Both the position numbers and the translations under genes were made by a program. The notes under the pieces were generated by a model. That model did no database searches, had not been told where the DNA came from, and saw only the letters and a list, made by a program, of their open reading frames with translations. A DNA stretch of 64,000 bases from Blautia parvula. GTDB taxonomy: Bacteria; Bacillota; Clostridia; Lachnospirales; Lachnospiraceae. Below, one piece after another: positions 774 to 30,778 of the stretch. Each line of letters starts with the position of its first letter. The stretch's first letter is position 1. Location: the NCBI RefSeq assembly GCF_020215665.1, contig NZ_CP084061.1:434001-498000 (forward strand). The letters are read 5' to 3'.

Positions 774-2129
774 ATGGCAGTTATGGAAAAAGATATGACA
801 AAGGGCAGTCCGTTCCGGCTGATCCTGGCTTTTACGATTCCCCTCATAATCGGCAATGTTTTTCAGCAGCTCTATAACATGGTGGACGCCATCATTGTGG
901 GACGGACGGTGGGAGTCAACGCGCTGGCAGCAGTGGGGATGTCCGGCAGTATTGTGTTTCTGATCCTGGGGTTTTTAAACGGACTGACGACGGGATTTAC
1001 GGTCCTCACCTCAAGGACTTTCGGGGCGGGAAATATGGACGGTATGAAGAAATCTGTCTATTCCTCTTCCGTGCTGGCAGTTGTGGTCACTGTGATTCTG
1101 ACTGTGATCAGCGTGGCGGGGCTGAAAGGACTGCTGCGCCTGATGAATACCCCGGATGAAATTTTTCAGGATGCTTACCAGTATCTGTTTGTGGTGTTTC
1201 TGGGGATTTGGACCCAGGTGCTCTATAACCTGCTGGCAAGCTTTTTAAGGGCCCTTGGAAACAGCAGGATACCTCTGTATTTTCTGATCCTGGCGGCAGT
1301 GCTGAACATTTTCCTGGATCTGTTTTTTATACTGGTCATGAAGATGGGAACCAGAGGAGCGGCTGTGGCTACGGTGATCTCCCAGGGCGTGTCCGGTGTT
1401 CTGTGTCTTGTGTATATAGTGAAAAAGGTGCCGCTTCTGCATATGAAGAAGGAGCACAGGATTCTGGAGAAAAATTCCGTCCGTTTTCAGATCAAGGTGG
1501 GGATTCCCATGGGTCTTCAGTTTTCCATTACCGCGCTGGGGATCATGATCCTGCAGAGTGCTCTCAATGGATTCGGAGCCAGGGCAGTGGCCGGCTTTAC
1601 GGCCTCCACAAAAGTCATGCAGCTGATCAATCAGGCCATGATTTCCATCGGTGTTACCATGGCAACGTATTCCTCACAGAATATCGGGGCGGGAAGGTTT
1701 GACAGGATCAGAAAAGGAGCCAGGGTCTCCACAGGGATGTCCGCTGTGTATGCCGTGCTGGTCACTGTGATCCTTCATTTTTTCGGCAAATACATGGTGC
1801 GCATGTTCATTGACAGCGGACAGACAGACGTGCTTGGGTACTGCGAGATGTATTTTTCCATCATTGCGCCGTTTATGCTGATTTTGGGGTCCATTTTTAT
1901 ATACAGAAATATTCTGCAGGGAATGGGATTTGGCTTTGTACCCATGATGGCAGGGGCGGCTGAGCTGGCAGCCAGGACAGCGGCAGCTTTTACCGCGCGC
2001 CATTTCGGCTCTTTTGAGGGAATCTGCTGGGCAGACCCTCTGGCCTGGGTTGCGGCTGCGTCGCCTCTTGTGATCACTTATCTGTGGAGAATGAAGAAAT
2101 TGGAGAGGGAAGCCTATGAAAGAGAGTAA
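774..2129 (+). CDS. MATE family multidrug/metabolite efflux transporter
   Basis: This 451-residue protein is a polytopic carrier of the MATE (NorM/DinF) family, expected to export cationic or organic compounds driven by a Na+ or H+ gradient across the cytoplasmic membrane. The N-terminal half carries the family-typical stretch around VFQQLYNMVDAIIVGR (about residues 31-46), and about 12 hydrophobic segments fill the rest in two similar halves. The open frame runs upstream to 528, but the ATG at 774 follows GAGAAGGAG at 762-770 and begins at the usual place for the family. Its 3' end overlaps the next transporter gene by 14 bp, so the two are probably one operon. Substrate cannot be told from sequence. 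Confidence 0.9.
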   Translation: MAVMEKDMTKGSPFRLILAFTIPLIIGNVFQQLYNMVDAIIVGRTVGVNALAAVGMSGSIVFLILGFLNGLTTGFTVLTSRTFGAGNMDGMKKSVYSSSVLAVVVTVILTVISVAGLKGLLRLMNTPDEIFQDAYQYLFVVFLGIWTQVLYNLLASFLRALGNSRIPLYFLILAAVLNIFLDLFFILVMKMGTRGAAVATVISQGVSGVLCLVYIVKKVPLLHMKKEHRILEKNSVRFQIKVGIPMGLQFSITALGIMILQSALNGFGARAVAGFTASTKVMQLINQAMISIGVTMATYSSQNIGAGRFDRIRKGARVSTGMSAVYAVLVTVILHFFGKYMVRMFIDSGQTDVLGYCEMYFSIIAPFMLILGSIFIYRNILQGMGFGFVPMMAGAAELAARTAAAFTARHFGSFEGICWADPLAWVAAASPLVITYLWRMKKLEREAYERE

Positions 2130-3113: not shown

Positions 3114-3144
3114 ACAATATTGGGAAAAACGGGGATAAGCGGAA

Positions 3145-4179
3145 ATGAGAGAGATAGAAACAACAAAAGCGGCAGGACATATTCTCTGCCATGATATCAC
3201 GCAGATCATTAAAGGAGAAAAGAAAGGTCCTGTGTTCAGAAAAGGCCATGTAGTCAGGGAAGAAGACATTCCTGTCCTCTTATCTGTGGGCAAGGAGCAC
3301 CTGTTTGTCTGGGAAAAGACAGAGGGAATCCTCCATGAAAATGAGGGCGCCGAGATTCTGCGGGATATCTGCAAAAATGAATATATGTCCGAATCGGAGA
3401 TAAAAGAGGGAAAGATTGAGCTGAAGGCCCAGATAGACGGGCTGTTTAAAATAGACAGAAAAAAACTGCTGGCAGTTAATTCCCTGGGAGAGATGATGAT
3501 TGCCTCCCGCCACGGTGATTTTCCGGTAAAAAAGGGAGACAAGCTGGCAGGCATGCGCATCATTCCCCTTGTCATCGAGGAGGAGAAGATGAACCGGGCG
3601 AAAGAGGCCGCGAAGGGTGGTCCTGTTTTTCAGATCCTGCCCTATCGGGAGAAAAAGGTGGGCATTGTGACCACAGGCAGCGAGATTTCCAAGGGCCTGA
3701 TCCAGGATACCTTCGGTCCTGTGATCGAGGAGAAGCTGGGGGAATTCCCCACAACAGTGATGGGCCAGGTGTATCCGGGGGATGACAAGGAGAAGATCAC
3801 AGAGGAGATCCTTTCCTTTATAGAGCAGGGCGCGGATATGGTGGTCTGTACTGGCGGTATGAGTGTGGACCCGGATGACCGCACGCCGGGAGCTATTAAG
3901 GATACAGGGGCTGAGATCATTTCCTACGGGGCACCGGTGCTGCCGGGAGCCATGCTTTTGGTGGCCTATTATAAGAAAGACGGGAAGCGTATTCCCATTG
4001 TGGGACTTCCGGGATGCGTTATGTATGCAAAGAGAACCGTATTTGATCTGGTACTGCCCAGGCTCATGGCGGATGACCCGATAGAAAAAGAAGAACTGGC
4101 AGCTCTTGGCGAGGGCGGATTATGTCTGAACTGCGATGTCTGTACCTTCCCCAACTGCGGGTTCGGAAAAGGAAGATAA
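3145..4179 (+). CDS. Molybdopterin-binding (MoeA/MogA-like) protein
   Basis: The 344-residue protein carries a MoCF_biosynth (molybdopterin-binding) domain at about residues 170-320, with TTGSE at 176-180 and GGMSVDPDDRTPGA at 237-250, the signature that binds molybdopterin in MogA and MoeA. The first 150 residues resemble a MoeA-type N-terminal region but the protein is shorter than a true MoeA (about 400). The tail, residues 326-344, holds three cysteines (LNCDVCTFPNC), which MoeA lacks. It is followed after 3 bp by an XdhC-like gene and then by ModABC, so a role in molybdenum cofactor handling for a molybdenum hydroxylase is likely. The exact reaction is not known to me. Confidence 0.8.
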   Translation: MREIETTKAAGHILCHDITQIIKGEKKGPVFRKGHVVREEDIPVLLSVGKEHLFVWEKTEGILHENEGAEILRDICKNEYMSESEIKEGKIELKAQIDGLFKIDRKKLLAVNSLGEMMIASRHGDFPVKKGDKLAGMRIIPLVIEEEKMNRAKEAAKGGPVFQILPYREKKVGIVTTGSEISKGLIQDTFGPVIEEKLGEFPTTVMGQVYPGDDKEKITEEILSFIEQGADMVVCTGGMSVDPDDRTPGAIKDTGAEIISYGAPVLPGAMLLVAYYKKDGKRIPIVGLPGCVMYAKRTVFDLVLPRLMADDPIEKEELAALGEGGLCLNCDVCTFPNCGFGKGR

Positions 4180-12756: not shown

Positions 12757-13167
12757 ATGGAAGTTTACAGACATAAGACCCAGTATTATGAGACAGACCA
12801 GATGGGAATCGTACATCACTCCAATTATATCCGCTGGTTTGAGGAGGCGAGGACAGATTTCCTTGAGAAGCTGGGGATGGGATATGACAGGATGGAGGCA
12901 GAGGGAATCATAAGCCCGGTGCTCTCCGTGTCCTGTGAGTACAGGACTATGACGCATTTCGGAGAGACTGTGGCGATTGCCGTGGCGCTGACAAAATATA
13001 ACGGTATCCGGCTGGAGCTGGCATATACGGTCAGCAGTGCGGACACCGGGGAGGTTCGGGCAGTGGGAAGCTCAAAGCACTGTTTTCTTGACAGGGACGG
13101 TAATATCCTTTCTCTGAAGAAAAGGAGTCCGGGGTATCATAAAATGCTGGAAGAGTGTGTGAAATAG
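12757..13167 (+). CDS. Acyl-CoA thioesterase, YbgC/FadM-like (4HBT hotdog fold)
   Basis: The 136-residue protein is one hotdog domain. The YbgC-type active site is at the start, YYETDQMGIVHHSNYIRWFE (residues 10-29), with D14 as the catalytic acid. Members hydrolyse acyl-CoA or acyl-ACP thioesters in the cytoplasm. Chain-length preference is not visible. Confidence 0.9.
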   Translation: MEVYRHKTQYYETDQMGIVHHSNYIRWFEEARTDFLEKLGMGYDRMEAEGIISPVLSVSCEYRTMTHFGETVAIAVALTKYNGIRLELAYTVSSADTGEVRAVGSSKHCFLDRDGNILSLKKRSPGYHKMLEECVK

Positions 13168-13192
13168 AATGTCGGGGTTTCTTTGACCGGAC

Positions 13193-13371
13193 GTCACCCG
13201 GCCCCTGGCTTCTCTCACGCAAACACCCGCAACGCTCGGCCGAGCTAACCGTTAACTGCAACTAAGACGTTCGGGAAAGCCCTCACGCCTAAGTTTCCGT
13301 AAACGGTGGATCTCGTCCTCCCTAAGTGCGCGGGCAAATGTTTACGTGAGAGAAGCCAGGGGCCGGGTGCC
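13193..13371 (+). repeat. Structured dispersed repeat, copy 1
   Basis: A 179-bp element closed by a 33-bp terminal stem: 13193-13225 pairs with 13339-13371 (31 of 33 positions). Inside lie CCCGC/GCGGG pairing next to the terminal stem, a GCT-N6-AGC hairpin, an arm ACCGTT/AACGGT capped by a hairpin CGT-TC-GGG-AAAG-CCC-TC-ACG, and a third arm near 13311-13327. Copies 2 (13528-13706, opposite strand) and 3 (27661-27840) share the core almost letter for letter but have different stem sequences that still pair. No protein frame is conserved. I read it as a structured RNA gene or folded-DNA repeat of unknown family. Confidence 0.85.
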
Positions 13372-13527
13372 TGTTGGTTGGAAAGCGGGAGGTATCAGGT
13401 TTGCAGACGAAATGTTTTCTCCGGTGCGGAAGTGTATTACACCGGTAATTGGTGTCTATATATTTATTTATGTTAGAAATACTCCGCCTGTGAAATTTAT
13501 TTTGAGAACTTTCGTTTCCAGTACACA
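13372..13527. other. Spacer between inverted repeat copies
   Basis: These 156 bp separate the two inverted copies. They contain an imperfect hairpin (CCGGTG pairing with CACCGG near 13431-13445) and an AT-rich stretch. The last bases match the 3' flank of copy 3 in reverse (TGACTGTGTACTGGA), so that flank belongs to the element. No gene is apparent. Confidence 0.5.
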
Positions 13528-13706
13528 GTCATGGGGGCATGGGAATCTCTCAGGCAGGCATTTGCCCGCGCTTTTAGCGATGGCGAGATCCACCGTTTAC
13601 GGAAACTTAGGCGTGAGGGCTTTCCCGAACGTCTTAGTTGCAGTTAACGGTTAGCTTGACAGAGCGTTGCGGGTGTCTGCCTGAGAGATTCCCATGCCCC
13701 CATGAC
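13528..13706 (-). repeat. Structured dispersed repeat, copy 2 (inverted)
   Basis: Read on the minus strand, this 179-bp copy has the same core as copy 1, with about 73 consecutive identical bases in the middle, but the distal half of the terminal stem is different (TGGGGGCATGGGAAT instead of CCCGGCCCCTGGCTT). Its other arm has changed to match, so 32 of 33 positions still pair. The 5' flank AGCGGACGTCA and 3' flank TGACTGTGTACTGGA are shared with copy 3. Confidence 0.85.
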
Positions 13707-13752
13707 GTCCGCTTAAGCCAAAAAAGCCACAAAATAAAATTTCCGTTTCCTC

Positions 13753-13851: not shown

Positions 13852-14226
13852 ATGATTGTGATTGATTACCAGAACCGAAAACCGATTTACGAACAAATTG
13901 TAGAGCGCTTTCAGATGCTGATCGTAAGAGGCGTGCTGGAACCGGACTCTCAGATGCCTTCTGTCCGTTCTCTGGCAACGGAGCTGTCCATCAACCCCAA
14001 TACCATTCAGAAAGCATATACGATCCTGGAGCAGCAGGGATATATCTACCCCGTTAAGGGAAGGGGAAATTTTGTGTCCGGCAGCAGGAATCTTGTGGAA
14101 CAGAAGAAGGATAACTTTTTCCAGAAGCTGAGGATCGTCATTCGGGAAGGGATTGAGCTGGGCGTTACAAAAGAGGAGTGTGTGAGCCGGACTGCGGCGC
14201 TGTACGAGGAGGTTAGCCATGATTAA
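13852..14226 (+). CDS. GntR-family (YtrA subfamily) transcriptional regulator
   Basis: The 124-residue protein has an N-terminal winged helix (residues 1-75) with the GntR pattern PIYEQIVERFQ, MPSVRSLATELSINPNTIQKAY and GYIYPVKGRGNFV. The short C-terminal part of about 50 residues is the YtrA type, which lacks a large ligand domain and usually governs ABC transporters. The gene is the first of an operon with an ABC ATPase and permease, and a 9-bp palindrome sits over the transcription start. It probably represses the operon until an antibiotic or cell-envelope signal appears. Confidence 0.92.
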   Translation: MIVIDYQNRKPIYEQIVERFQMLIVRGVLEPDSQMPSVRSLATELSINPNTIQKAYTILEQQGYIYPVKGRGNFVSGSRNLVEQKKDNFFQKLRIVIREGIELGVTKEECVSRTAALYEEVSHD

Positions 14227-26235: not shown

Positions 26236-27600
26236 ATGATTAACATTTTTGAAGTAAATGAGACCAACAAAATGATAGAGCAGGAAAATCTGGATGTGCG
26301 TACCATTACCATGGGAATCAGCCTTCTGGACTGCATAGATTCTGACCTGCAGCAGGTGAACAGAAAAATCTACGACAAGATCACCACCCTGGCAAGAAAC
26401 CTGGTGAAGACCGGTGACGAGATTTCCGGAGAGTACGGAATCCCTGTTGTGAACAAGCGAATCTCTGTAACCCCCATTGCGCTGGTGGGCGGTGCGGCCT
26501 GCAAAGCGCCGGAGGATTTTGTGACTCTGGCAGAGACTCTGGATCGGGCAGCAAAAGAAGTGGGAGTGAACTTCATCGGCGGCTACTCTGCGCTTGTGTC
26601 AAAAGGTATGACAAAGGCGGACGAGATGCTGATCCGCTCCATCCCGGAAGCCCTGGCAGCCACAGAGAGAGTCTGCAGTTCCATCAACCTTGGCTCCTCC
26701 AAGACAGGCATCAACATGGATGCTGTGAAGCTTATGGGAGAAATCGTTCTTGCTACTGCCCAGGCGACCAGGGAGCAGGATTCCCTGGGATGTGCCAAAC
26801 TGGTGGTATTCTGCAACGCCCCGGATGACAATCCGTTCATGGCAGGCGCTTTCCACGGTGTGACAGAGGCGGATGCCATTATCAATGTGGGTGTTTCCGG
26901 ACCCGGTGTTGTGAAGACAGCCCTGGAAAAAGTGCGGGGAAAAGATTTTGAGGTGCTCTGCGAGACCATCAAGAAAACGGCCTTTAAAGTAACACGCGTG
27001 GGACAGCTGGTAGCCCAGGAGGCATCCAAGCGCCTGGGGATTCCCTTCGGCATCGTGGATCTGTCACTGGCACCCACTCCGGCCATCGGGGACAGTGTGG
27101 CAGATATTCTCCATGAGATTGGTGTGGAATATGCAGGTGCCCCAGGTACCACAGCAGCCCTTGCGCTTTTAAATGACCAGGTGAAAAAAGGCGGCGTTAT
27201 GGCATCCTCCTATGTGGGCGGTTTAAGCGGTGCCTTCATTCCGGTCAGCGAGGACCAGGGAATGATCGATGCGGTCAATGCCAATGCCCTTACCATAGAG
27301 AAGCTGGAAGCCATGACCTGTGTCTGCTCTGTGGGGCTGGATATGATCGCCATTCCGGGAGACACCAAAGCCAGCACCATTGCCGGCATCATTGCGGATG
27401 AATGTGCCATCGGTATGGTGAACCAGAAGACAACGGCTGTCCGTTTGATTCCGGTTATCGGAAAAGGTGTGGGAGAGACTGTGGAATTCGGAGGACTTCT
27501 GGGTTATGCACCGATCATGCCGGTCAATCCGTATTCCTGTGAAGCGTTTGTAAACAGAGGCGGAAGGATTCCGGCTCCTATCCACAGCTTTAAAAATTAG
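26236..27600 (+). CDS. PFL-like family protein (DUF711/UPF0210)
   Basis: The 454-residue protein matches the DUF711 family, which has a fold related to pyruvate formate-lyase and ribonucleotide reductase but no known reaction. It is about the normal family length. Recognisable parts include [14 protein letters not shown] near residue 27, [14 protein letters not shown] near 152 and [13 protein letters not shown] near 363. Always-paired with the small ACT protein upstream in many genomes, which suggests amino acid-related regulation. No glycyl radical motif was seen at the C-terminus. Confidence 0.9.
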
Positions 27601-27650: not shown

Positions 27651-27660
27651 CTAAGCGGAC

Positions 27661-27840
27661 GTCACCCGGTCCCTGGCATCTCTCACGCAAACACCCGCAA
27701 CGCTCAGCCGAGCTAACCGTTAACTACAACTAAGAGCACTCGGGAGAGCCCTCGTGTCTAAGTTTCCGTAAACGGTGGATCTCGTCTTCGCTAAAGACGC
27801 GGGTAAATGTTTGCGTGAGAGATGCCAGGGACCGGGTGAC
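27661..27840 (+). repeat. Structured dispersed repeat, copy 3
   Basis: This 180-bp copy has a perfect 33-bp terminal stem (27661-27693 with 27808-27840). Compared with copy 1 its stem differs at two positions and both are compensated on the other arm. Its inner hairpin is CAC-TC-GGG-AGAG-CCC-TC-GTG where copies 1 and 2 have CGT/ACG, again compensated, while the 2x2 TC/TC internal loop is kept. The third arm CGTCTT/AAGACG is fully paired here. It lies between a terminator and the feo promoter, in the same direction as both neighbours. Confidence 0.88.
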
Positions 27841-27906
27841 TGTGTACTGGAGGAACTTGTAGAAAAAAGAACTTGTGCAAATAGGAAAAATAAGTAAAAA
27901 AATATA

Positions 27907-28553: not shown

Positions 28554-28585
28554 CGTATTTTTTGGAAATAGAGGAGGAAGAGAGA

Positions 28586-30778
28586 ATGTCAGTAAAAATT
28601 GCGCTTGCCGGCAACCCAAACTGTGGCAAGACCACACTGTTCAATGCGTTGACAGGGTCCAATCAGTTTGTGGGAAACTGGCCCGGTGTTACAGTAGAGA
28701 AGAAGGAAGGAAAACTGAAGGGAAACAAGGATGTAGTCATCATGGACCTTCCGGGAATTTATTCCCTGTCCCCTTACACACTGGAGGAAGTGGTAGCCAG
28801 AAATTATCTGATCACAGAACGCCCTGACGCCATACTGAATATTGTGGATGGCACGAACCTGGAGAGAAACCTGTATTTGTCCACCCAGCTTATGGAGCTT
28901 GGCATCCCTGTCATTATGGCAGTGAACATGATGGATGTGGTGGCGAAAAACGGAGACATCATTCAGATCGGTGAACTGTCCGGACAGCTCGGCTGTGAAG
29001 TGGTAGAAATCTCTGCTCTGAAGGGAACCGGTATCCGGGAAGCCGCAGACAAGGCTGTGCGCATTGCCGAAAAGAAAAGCGCAGGCGCCCCGGTCCACAG
29101 ATTCCAGAAGCGTGTGGAAGAAGCCCTGGATGAGATCGAGTCTTTGCTGGACGGCAATATCCCGGAAGAACAGAGACGTTTTTACGCGGTAAAGCTGTTT
29201 GAGAGAGATCATAAGATCGGCGAGACCATATCCGGCCTGCCGGACGTGGAAACCATCGTCGCTTCCGTGGAAAAAGATTTGGACGATGATTCCGAGAGCA
29301 TTATCACCAATGAGAGATACACGTACATAGGAGCTGTTGTAAAAAAAGCGTATATCAAAAAGAGCAGGGGAAAAATGACCACCTCAGATAAGATTGACGG
29401 AATTGTCACAAACCGTTTCCTCGGCCTTCCCATCTTCTTTCTCGTCATGGCACTGGTGTATTATGTGTCCGTCTCCACTGTGGGCGGATGGGCCACAGAC
29501 TGGGTGAACGACGGGGTATTCGCTGACGGGTGGAATTTCCTGGGATTCTCCTCCCTGCATGTTCCTGCCATACCCGAACTGCTGAATAACGGACTGGAAG
29601 CTGTTCACTGCGCGGCATGGCTTCAGAGCCTGATCGTGGACGGCATTGTTGCCGGTGTAGGCGCCGTACTGGGATTCGTGCCGCAGATGCTGGTGCTGTT
29701 TCTCTTCCTGGCATTCCTGGAGGGATGCGGATATATGGCACGTGTGGCTTTTATCATGGACCGTATTTTCCGTAAATTCGGTCTTTCCGGGAAATCCTTC
29801 ATTCCCATGCTGATTGGCACAGGATGCGGGGTTCCGGGAATCATGGCATCAAGGACCATTGAAAATGACAGAGACCGGAAGATGACCATTATGACCACCA
29901 CATTCATTCCGTGCAGCGCGAAACTGCCTATTATCGCGCTTATCGCAGGTGCTATCTTCGGCGGGGCCTGGTGGGTGGCGCCCAGTGCGTATATTGCAGG
30001 TGTTCTGGCTGTCATCTGCTCCGGCATCATTCTGAAAAAGACCAGAAAATTCTCCGGAGATCCGGCGCCTTTCGTTATGGAGCTTCCTACATACCATATG
30101 CCCACTGTGGGAAATGTCCTGCGCAGCATGTGGGAGAGAGGCTGGTCCTTCATTAAAAAAGCAGGCACGGTGATTCTTCTCTCTACTATCTTTATCTGGT
30201 TCACACAGGGATTTGGTTTCGAGAATGGTTCTTTCGGTATGGTGGAGGATATGGAGAACTCCCTGCTGGCAGGTATCGGAAGAGGCATCTCCTGGCTGTT
30301 CATCCCCCTTGGATGGGGAGACTGGAAAGCCGCAGTGGCAGCAGTTTCCGGACTGGTGGCAAAAGAGAATGTGGTCGGCACTTTTGGTATCCTCTATGGC
30401 TTTGCCGAGGTGGCAGAAGACGGTGCTGAGATATGGGGGACACTGGCAGGCAGCTTCACAGCAGCTGCAGCTTACTCTTTCCTGGTATTTAACCTTCTGT
30501 GCGCGCCCTGCTTTGCGGCGATGGGAGCGATCAAACGGGAGATGAACAATGGAGGCTGGTTCTGGTTTGCCATTGGATACCAGACACTGCTGGCTTACTG
30601 CTCCTCCCTGGTTGTTTACCAGATCGGACATCTGCTGGAGGGCGGAGCCTTCGGTATAGGTACTGCGGCGGCGATCCTGGTTGTGGTATTCTTCCTGTAT
30701 ATGCTGTTCAGACCGTATAAGGAAAAAGGAGATACATGGAACATAAAAATGAAAACAGGGAAGGCAGTGAAGGCATAA
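28586..30778 (+). CDS. feoB: Ferrous iron transporter FeoB
   Basis: FeoB imports Fe(II) through the cytoplasmic membrane, gated by an N-terminal GTPase. In this 730-residue protein the G-domain has G1 GNPNCGKTT at 9-17, G3 DLPG at about 54-57 and G4 NMMD at about 115-118. A helical linker follows to about 270, then the membrane domain with the paired Gate regions, visible as GYMARVAFIMDRIFRKFGLSG and GTGCGVPGIMASRT. The TTG at 28562 would add eight residues before the GAGGAGG ribosome binding site, so the ATG at 28586 is the true start. Confidence 0.96.
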   Translation: MSVKIALAGNPNCGKTTLFNALTGSNQFVGNWPGVTVEKKEGKLKGNKDVVIMDLPGIYSLSPYTLEEVVARNYLITERPDAILNIVDGTNLERNLYLSTQLMELGIPVIMAVNMMDVVAKNGDIIQIGELSGQLGCEVVEISALKGTGIREAADKAVRIAEKKSAGAPVHRFQKRVEEALDEIESLLDGNIPEEQRRFYAVKLFERDHKIGETISGLPDVETIVASVEKDLDDDSESIITNERYTYIGAVVKKAYIKKSRGKMTTSDKIDGIVTNRFLGLPIFFLVMALVYYVSVSTVGGWATDWVNDGVFADGWNFLGFSSLHVPAIPELLNNGLEAVHCAAWLQSLIVDGIVAGVGAVLGFVPQMLVLFLFLAFLEGCGYMARVAFIMDRIFRKFGLSGKSFIPMLIGTGCGVPGIMASRTIENDRDRKMTIMTTTFIPCSAKLPIIALIAGAIFGGAWWVAPSAYIAGVLAVICSGIILKKTRKFSGDPAPFVMELPTYHMPTVGNVLRSMWERGWSFIKKAGTVILLSTIFIWFTQGFGFENGSFGMVEDMENSLLAGIGRGISWLFIPLGWGDWKAAVAAVSGLVAKENVVGTFGILYGFAEVAEDGAEIWGTLAGSFTAAAAYSFLVFNLLCAPCFAAMGAIKREMNNGGWFWFAIGYQTLLAYCSSLVVYQIGHLLEGGAFGIGTAAAILVVVFFLYMLFRPYKEKGDTWNIKMKTGKAVKA

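Follow-up and report, generated by a model that had tools for sequence, protein, structure and literature searches.

Several classes of bacterial DNA combine a hairpin with short conserved signals. The ends of IS200/IS605 elements carry short tags outside the foot of a hairpin, and these are recognised on one strand. Integron attC sites are palindromes with a conserved shape, a free sequence and asymmetric unpaired bases, and it is their ends, which bear R boxes, that are conserved. MITEs are small, non-coding and dispersed, and are bounded by terminal inverted repeats. Where a structured RNA is considered instead, covariation is the standard proof of structure, and G.U pairs are tolerated on the functional strand of such an RNA. 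REP elements are reported to form inverted pairs that often join different subtypes across variable spacers (PMC3733652; PMC3116915), and for REPs of the CGTC class, too, no transposase is known (PMC3733652).

The repeats considered here belong to a large dispersed family of DNA hairpins in gut Lachnospiraceae that is apparently undescribed so far; no description of such a family was found in searches of the open-access literature covering titles and abstract openings of the best ten results each. We propose, with a probability of about 0.6, that this is a REP-like, apparently mobile family of dispersed DNA palindromes that works like oversized REP elements.

Results

Copies in the window

The window analysed is a stretch of 64,000 nucleotides at positions 434001-498000 of a 6.25-Mb single-contig Blautia genome (G000), and it holds three copies of a repeat of about 180 bp each (Table 1). 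Among the records searched, the nearest match to its aspartokinase is from a Blautia MAG (88% identity). The first-pass annotation had placed these three copies, and had counted the pairs in their 33-bp outer stems together with ten matched stem differences in one comparison and two in another; on re-reading the sequence and recounting the pairing we find the same positions and the same numbers. Copies 2 and 3 have 10 differences in the 5' arm, 10/10 of which are matched in the 3' arm, plus one change in the 3' arm only, and copies 1 and 3 have two differences, both matched, plus two changes in the 3' arm only. In four single-strand folds the repeat scores much lower than its dinucleotide shuffles (z -10.2 to -14.8), and in none of the four does any of 200 shuffles reach the same value (0/200). 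A search of the window with a refined covariance model (R2, E up to 1) gave no fourth copy.

Table 1. Features of the three copies; coordinates are those of the window
Feature	Coordinates	Strand	Basis and remarks
Copy 1 5' tag GGAC, at hairpin foot	13189..13192	+	Read in sequence; same tag directly before the stem in 99/148 copies with a delimited stem
Copy 1, alpha type	13193..13371	+	Outer stem arms 13193-13225 and 13339-13371, 31/33 pairs
Copy 1 conserved core hairpin	13239..13317	+	Model R2, 99.7 bits
Spacer between 3' ends of convergent copies 1 and 2	13372..13527	no strand	Read in sequence
Copy 2, beta type, convergent with copy 1	13528..13706	-	32/33 stem pairs
Copy 2 conserved core hairpin	13582..13660	-	Model R2, 96.4 bits
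Copy 2 5' tag GGAC (+ strand: GTCC)	13707..13710	-	Read in sequence
Copy 3 5' tag GGAC	27657..27660	+	Read in sequence
Copy 3, single element	27661..27840	+	33/33 stem pairs
Copy 3 conserved core hairpin	27707..27786	+	Model R2, 91.3 bits
Copy 3 3' tail TGTGTACTGGAG	27841..27852	+	Starts TG, as found directly after the stem in 118/148 copies

Copies 1 and 2 are flanked by a thioesterase gene (12757-13167) and a gene for a GntR-type regulator (13852-14226), and copy 3 by a DUF711 gene (26236-27600) and feoB (28562-30778), all identified by Pfam. The spacer between copies 1 and 2 is by eye unrelated to that of a second pair in the same genome (G000:C1:5.829 Mb), except for the element tails of about 12 nt. 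The GGAC before and the TG after the stem, the convergent arrangement of copies 1 and 2, and the extra copies elsewhere in the genome had been missed in the earlier annotation.

The family and its layout

By blastn the genome contains six full copies, two of which form the other convergent pair, at 5.829 Mb; another three matches are partial and confined to the middle of the element. A covariance model of the core of about 80 nt (R1) matched 15 places in this genome, 18 in G007 and 5 in G008, which are other species of the genus, and gave no match in the 17 other genomes among the 20 of the genus that were searched. Extending the covariance-model search to Lachnospiraceae genomes, as had been suggested from the window copies, identified members in 33/397 genomes and 31/334 genera, each genome contributing no more than 11 scored candidates; 364/397 genomes were without a match. 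Among 391 genomes drawn from the class only G000 and G078 matched, both of them Lachnospiraceae, and R1 found none in 80 contig pieces around the aspartokinase genes of relatives. The second model, R2, was built from 101 members and gave 36, 41, 16, 40, 50, 10, 23, 32, 15, 14, 7 and 8 raw matches in 12 rich genomes (E up to 1e-5), the figure for the window's own genome being 36; these raw counts may include opposite-strand matches of one copy. The distribution of the family is patchy and multi-copy, and 166 members were taken into the analysis below. Carriage on phages or plasmids, searched by blastn with copy 3, gave no match.

At gathering level Rfam gave no match in the window or in 18 further loci, which agrees with the first-pass annotation, where no known family was named for this layout. 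An E-value search of 7 loci returned four hits to miRNA precursor models, all below gathering. We therefore rejected a known RNA family as the identity of the element, as sub-threshold miRNA precursor models fit any long hairpin.

The element is laid out as GGAC, a variable stem, a conserved core, the complementary stem arm and TG. The stem could be delimited in 148/166 members (frequencies of the two feet are given in Table 1), and the length from foot to foot is 162-379 bp with a median of 183 (n=148). The stem is free sequence of about 20 to 120 bp and surrounds a conserved imperfect hairpin core, which by eye measures about 130 nt; also by eye, the motifs AACGCT on the left and GCTAAAARCG on the right stand inside the stem; the core hairpin has RCUAAC on its left side and GGAU on its right side. 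Beyond the tags the flanks are complementary again in 23/148 copies, compared with 1.4% of reshuffled flank pairs.

Individual copies depart from this layout in several ways. The longest stem, that of L203, spans about 120 bp, is mismatched at few positions and holds an apparent older tag, which suggests that arms were added outward. In L203 and likewise in L199 the stem is exceptionally long and has GACG steps resembling inner tags, as would result if the palindromes grew outward in layers. Upstream of some 5' arms (L103, L123, L128 and L174) a decayed tandem copy is visible by eye. The 5' arms of the Blautia copies (G000, G007 and G008) are purine-rich: the purine share is 0.70 over 41 arms and 0.59 over the 90 arms from other genera. 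The tail TGGTTTTC, in which four T stand three bases past the stem, is common among Blautia copies. In two genomes (L107 and L124) a hairpin of about 40 nt (ACAATAGAAAGT...ACTTCCTATTGT) is inserted in the core and looks like another small mobile repeat, and at L122 a palindrome-like insert of 162 bp (1955-2116; AGAGTGTATATGAAAATT...AATTTTCATATACACTCT) splits the 3' partner element and perhaps represents a second palindromic family.

Gene context and convergent pairs

From mechanically called ORFs, 131 loci with a gene on either side could be placed (8 more remained unplaced). As raw counts, co-directional genes flank 63 of them, convergent genes 40 and divergent genes 28. Single elements between co-directional genes are oriented 27 with and 29 against the gene direction. 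Of 19 pairs of copies less than 1.2 kb apart, some of them orthologous, 18 are convergent with their 3' ends facing, one is tandem and none is divergent. Convergent partners have the least similar cores in six Blautia pairs (identity 0.50-0.56); nine others reach 0.57-0.78, and the most similar three, including the window pair and its like, 0.89-0.96. By eye, the spacers read between convergent copies look unrelated from pair to pair and share no common gene, and at L208 and L217 convergent copies stand 2.2 and 3 kb apart, respectively, around ordinary-looking genes. One such spacer, at L150, holds a tandem array of a 64-bp unit in 8 copies (714-1225) and a second 64-bp array at 1233-1407. The right flank of L188 contains a repeat of about 100-130 bp with at least 62 further matches at 86-100% identity in G120 and G411, probably another dispersed family.

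These data bear on whether the element is a transcription terminator or an RNA-processing hairpin, retained because it influences the genes beside it. Very stable intergenic hairpins, the 40/131 loci between convergent genes and the T-containing Blautia tails described above would suit such a role, but we consider it highly improbable, given that the tails in the window lack a T run, that a terminator scan gives no hit where copies 1 and 2 face each other, that 28/131 loci lie between divergent genes with no preference of orientation, and that R1 has no match in 17/20 genomes of the genus and 364/397 of the family.

Covariation and pair types

The covariation read from three copies is strong when more copies are aligned. 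Among 100 distinct cores, 24/25 pairs vary with changes on both sides; the change is two-sided in 628 cells and one-sided in 22. This count excludes five wrong-strand rows that were included in an earlier covariation count. When the partner column is slid by one to three the score falls from 0.69 to at most 0.13, so the pairing is real.

The types of pair were then compared with those of tRNAs. The cores of 166 copies contain 3819 Watson-Crick pairs, 57 G.U, 59 A.C and 157 other mismatches, 20/57 of the G.U coming from one weak pair and 17/59 of the A.C from another. The outer stems, counted in 131/166 copies with the 35 below the stem score used omitted, contain 3518 Watson-Crick pairs, 23 G.U, 34 A.C, 24 transversion mismatches and 10 gaps, so that core and outer stems together hold 80 G.U and 93 A.C. 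These pair counts omit matches on the wrong strand (five from A4 and two from A6) as well as L107 and L124, which carry the inserted hairpin. As a control, 33 distinct tRNA genes in 30/58 matched loci of the same genome, with stems drawn by ARAGORN, contain by a similar count 664 Watson-Crick pairs, 44 G.U and 0 A.C (Fisher p 5e-13 for G.U versus A.C); the stem rules of ARAGORN may undercount A.C in tRNAs, and the G.U share, which is 6.2% in tRNAs, 0.6% in the outer stems and 1.5% in the core, is unaffected by this. The covariance model itself should, if anything, favour G.U over A.C. An A.C pair read on one strand appears as G.U on its complement, and the counts therefore favour neither strand. 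That G.U is the usual bridge in RNA evolution is stated as a common belief in PMC8794818.

The first-pass annotation had read the repeat as a structured RNA, and of that reading the fold is real and the covariation is strong, but the step to RNA is unsupported. A multi-copy structured non-coding RNA, whose transcript would fold and whose core would be read by a protein or ligand, accords with covariation in 24/25 core pairs and with the conserved unpaired motifs RCUAAC and GGAU in an asymmetric core. However, there is no excess of G.U over A.C on either strand, unlike in tRNAs, orientation is unrelated to genes (27 with and 29 against, and 28/131 loci between divergent genes), and Rfam gives only the sub-threshold miRNA precursor models. 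On balance we regard such an RNA as unlikely.

Changes in one arm and in both arms

Four orthologue pairs from G120 and G411, two genomes of the same genus, differ at 5 one-arm and 0 two-arm positions. A further 15 pairs were compared, either close paralogues or orthologues from G000, G007 and G008; in these, 15 positions differ in a single arm, whereas both arms are affected by 74 substitutions and by 13 internal indel columns, another 9 of the 22 indel columns in all lying at alignment ends and being left out. The contrast between the two sets gives p 1.5e-4, which is a guide only: the pairs are few and were hand-picked because they could be aligned, certain copies were used twice, and part of the stems show only partial similarity. 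Outside this comparison are L173/L181, where the 3' arm of L173 is broken off, and L171/L282, with one one-arm difference. L232 and L236 differ by an 8-nt insertion that is present in both arms. Changes are thus found in one arm when young and mostly in both when older, and blocks move together.

The finding of one-arm changes in young orthologues and mostly two-arm changes in older ones and paralogues points to copying of DNA from arm to arm. Perfect hairpins and paired changes can arise by template switching within a hairpin, a published mechanism that has also been put forward for RNA genes (PMC8794818). The matched changes, which had looked like proof of an RNA, are better explained at the DNA level, since one arm seems to be copied onto the other; they stand whole in both arms, the 8-nt insertion included. 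If each arm can serve as template for its partner, the accompanying argument that mobile elements have to preserve their terminal sequence does not hold. The core retains unpaired bases despite arm copying, so it is either under selection or freshly spread. Conservation of these unpaired bases across genera indicates selection on something, which could be an RNA.

Presence, absence and exchange of tips

The window pair and copy 3 are absent from G007 and G008, where one match of 76-82% identity runs across each joined site; as an alternative, loss in both species may account for this. The intergenic DNA right at these sites does not align and is too diverged for a boundary or a target duplication to be read. 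Flank matches for the 15 copies of the window's genome were obtained at two loci only (L098 with L108 and L109, and L107 with L114), a lower bound, as the comparison covered 18 G007 and 5 G008 copies and R2 later found more. Empty sites in G120 and G411 gave no exact readable boundary, and L281 is an internal deletion of the element.

In G120 and G411, unrelated stems stand by eye on very similar cores, in agreement with the earlier statement that this is not a transposon with fixed terminal repeats. This observation had suggested to us that stems are made anew at each insertion. However, L171 and its G411 orthologue L282 have a common stem and different core tips, and the same holds for L172/L187 and L179/L180 in the listed sequences. 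With tips exchanged at fixed loci the cores become homogenised, and old stems under newer cores are then as likely as new stems, so that we did not retain the idea. At L120 and L121 the interior is inverted between flanks with a short stretch of homology, 34 bp according to blastn and longer by eye.

Search for a partner enzyme

The Y1 family PF01797 was searched in 26 genomes, with RAYT and other Y1 proteins counted together, and is present in 9/14 carriers of the element (in G000 as a partial match with a stop) and in 8/12 non-carriers, leaving 5/14 carriers without a match. An element lies within 1.5 kb of only one of 10 Y1 loci, and on one side. At that locus (L162, in G045) an IS200-like Y1 transposase at 1501-1863 (+) and an element at 3144-3223 (-) are 1.3 kb apart. 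A Y1 or RAYT partner was rejected because PF01797 does not track the element and 9/10 Y1 loci have no element within 1.5 kb.

Neighbouring ORFs were taken from 29 loci of 29 genomes (L131-L159), 54 of the 77 being scanned jointly, with results among the 25 most frequent of 83 families. The 50 ORFs beside L132-L159 that were scanned singly include no transposase and no integrase; they are metabolic and other common genes with one phage tail tube protein (L143), and 9 are without any family. An IS607-type serine transposase from the joint scan stands on the 3' side of two copies in one genus (L131, 666-1322; L133, 2025-2681), whose common flank is 98% identical over 1.1 kb, and L131 also has an OrfB gene. 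Across 323 loci this transposase gave no further strong match beyond L131 and L133, overlapping re-fetches of L133 aside, and a weak match of 50 aa in L235. A neighbouring transposase was accordingly rejected as partner, the IS607-type enzyme lying beside only two copies of one genus and none being found among the 50 ORFs. Loss of the hairpin nuclease SbcCD as a permissive condition has no clear link with the element, as SbcD is above the cut-off in 10/15 carriers and in 12/14 non-carriers, one of the latter with a stop.

These results also weigh on the idea that the element is a site for a recombinase whose substrate is a folded single strand of DNA, comparable to IntI and attC, in which case the hairpins would mark points of exchange or inversion for the DNA that they enclose or adjoin. 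Such a site would fit the conserved shape with free sequence, the spacers of paired elements, which differ by eye, the inverted interior between homologous short flanks at L120/L121, and the tips exchanged at fixed loci. We nonetheless think it quite unlikely, as the 50 neighbouring ORFs are without an integrase and the spacers without a common gene (by eye), and as the middle of the hairpin is conserved here, whereas attC keeps its ends.

Discussion

The intergenic dispersal of the copies, their foot tag, the inverted pairs and the variable spacers are marks of REP elements (PMC3733652; PMC3116915); the copies are in addition present in some species of the genus and absent from others, and their covariation comes with equal G.U and A.C. 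In this REP-like, apparently mobile family a folded single DNA strand or a cruciform would be recognised through the core and the feet, which would leave the stem sequence free. A mutation would start in one arm and reach its partner through a template switch during DNA synthesis within the hairpin, and through such arm copying the stem could drift yet stay complementary. Core tips would be swapped between loci, and dispersal would presumably occur by transposition. We count against a mobile DNA that no accompanying transposase emerged from the PF01797 search or from the 50 neighbouring ORFs, and that the diverged DNA beside the insertions let no target duplication or clean boundary be read. 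A more specific model, in which a shape-recognised mobile DNA keeps its core and its GGAC and TG feet, rewrites its stem by arm copying and spreads in Lachnospiraceae without Y1 by means of a new enzyme, is possible but tentative.

The hairpin family is a natural case of massive covariation without the wobble intermediates of RNA. Counting G.U against A.C is a simple check for other candidate RNAs that tests both strands at once. The family also brings a REP-like element to Lachnospiraceae, and in it arm copying in hairpins can be watched over evolutionary time.

The closest likeness is to REP, BIME and REPIN sequences, which are likewise intergenic palindromes with a short conserved unpaired tag at one foot (theirs GTAG or CGTC) and frequent inverted pairs; the present family is a multi-copy extragenic palindrome that forms inverted dimers (18/19 close pairs convergent). 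A REP unit, however, is 20-40 bp with stems of 8-9 bp in the CGTC class, whereas the elements described here are 162-379 bp with stems of about 20-120 bp and a folded core. Their tag is GGAC, although the GACG across the foot resembles an inverted CGTC on the opposite side, and REPs have a RAYT (Y1) partner whereas we see no link to Y1. Tag, size and the Y1 link were each tested and differ from those of REPs, and for this reason we do not file the family as REP. The main text of PMC3733652 contains neither the word Firmicutes nor Clostrid.

With IS200/IS605 the family shares short tags outside the hairpin foot, but it differs from these elements and their non-autonomous derivatives in that 5/14 carriers are without Y1, 1/10 Y1 loci is near an element and the stem sequence is not conserved. 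Like a MITE it is small, non-coding and dispersed, with terminal inverted repeats, but these repeats vary between copies and, in G120 and G411, are unrelated stems on very similar cores. With integron attC it has in common a palindrome of conserved shape and free sequence with asymmetric unpaired bases, and it differs from attC in conserving the centre rather than the ends and in having no integrase among the 50 neighbouring ORFs. Hairpins shaped by template switching (quasipalindromes) are alike in their homogenised arms and paired multibase changes, as described in PMC8794818. Quasipalindrome template switching is a mutation process possible in any hairpin, whereas here it would shape a whole repeat family.
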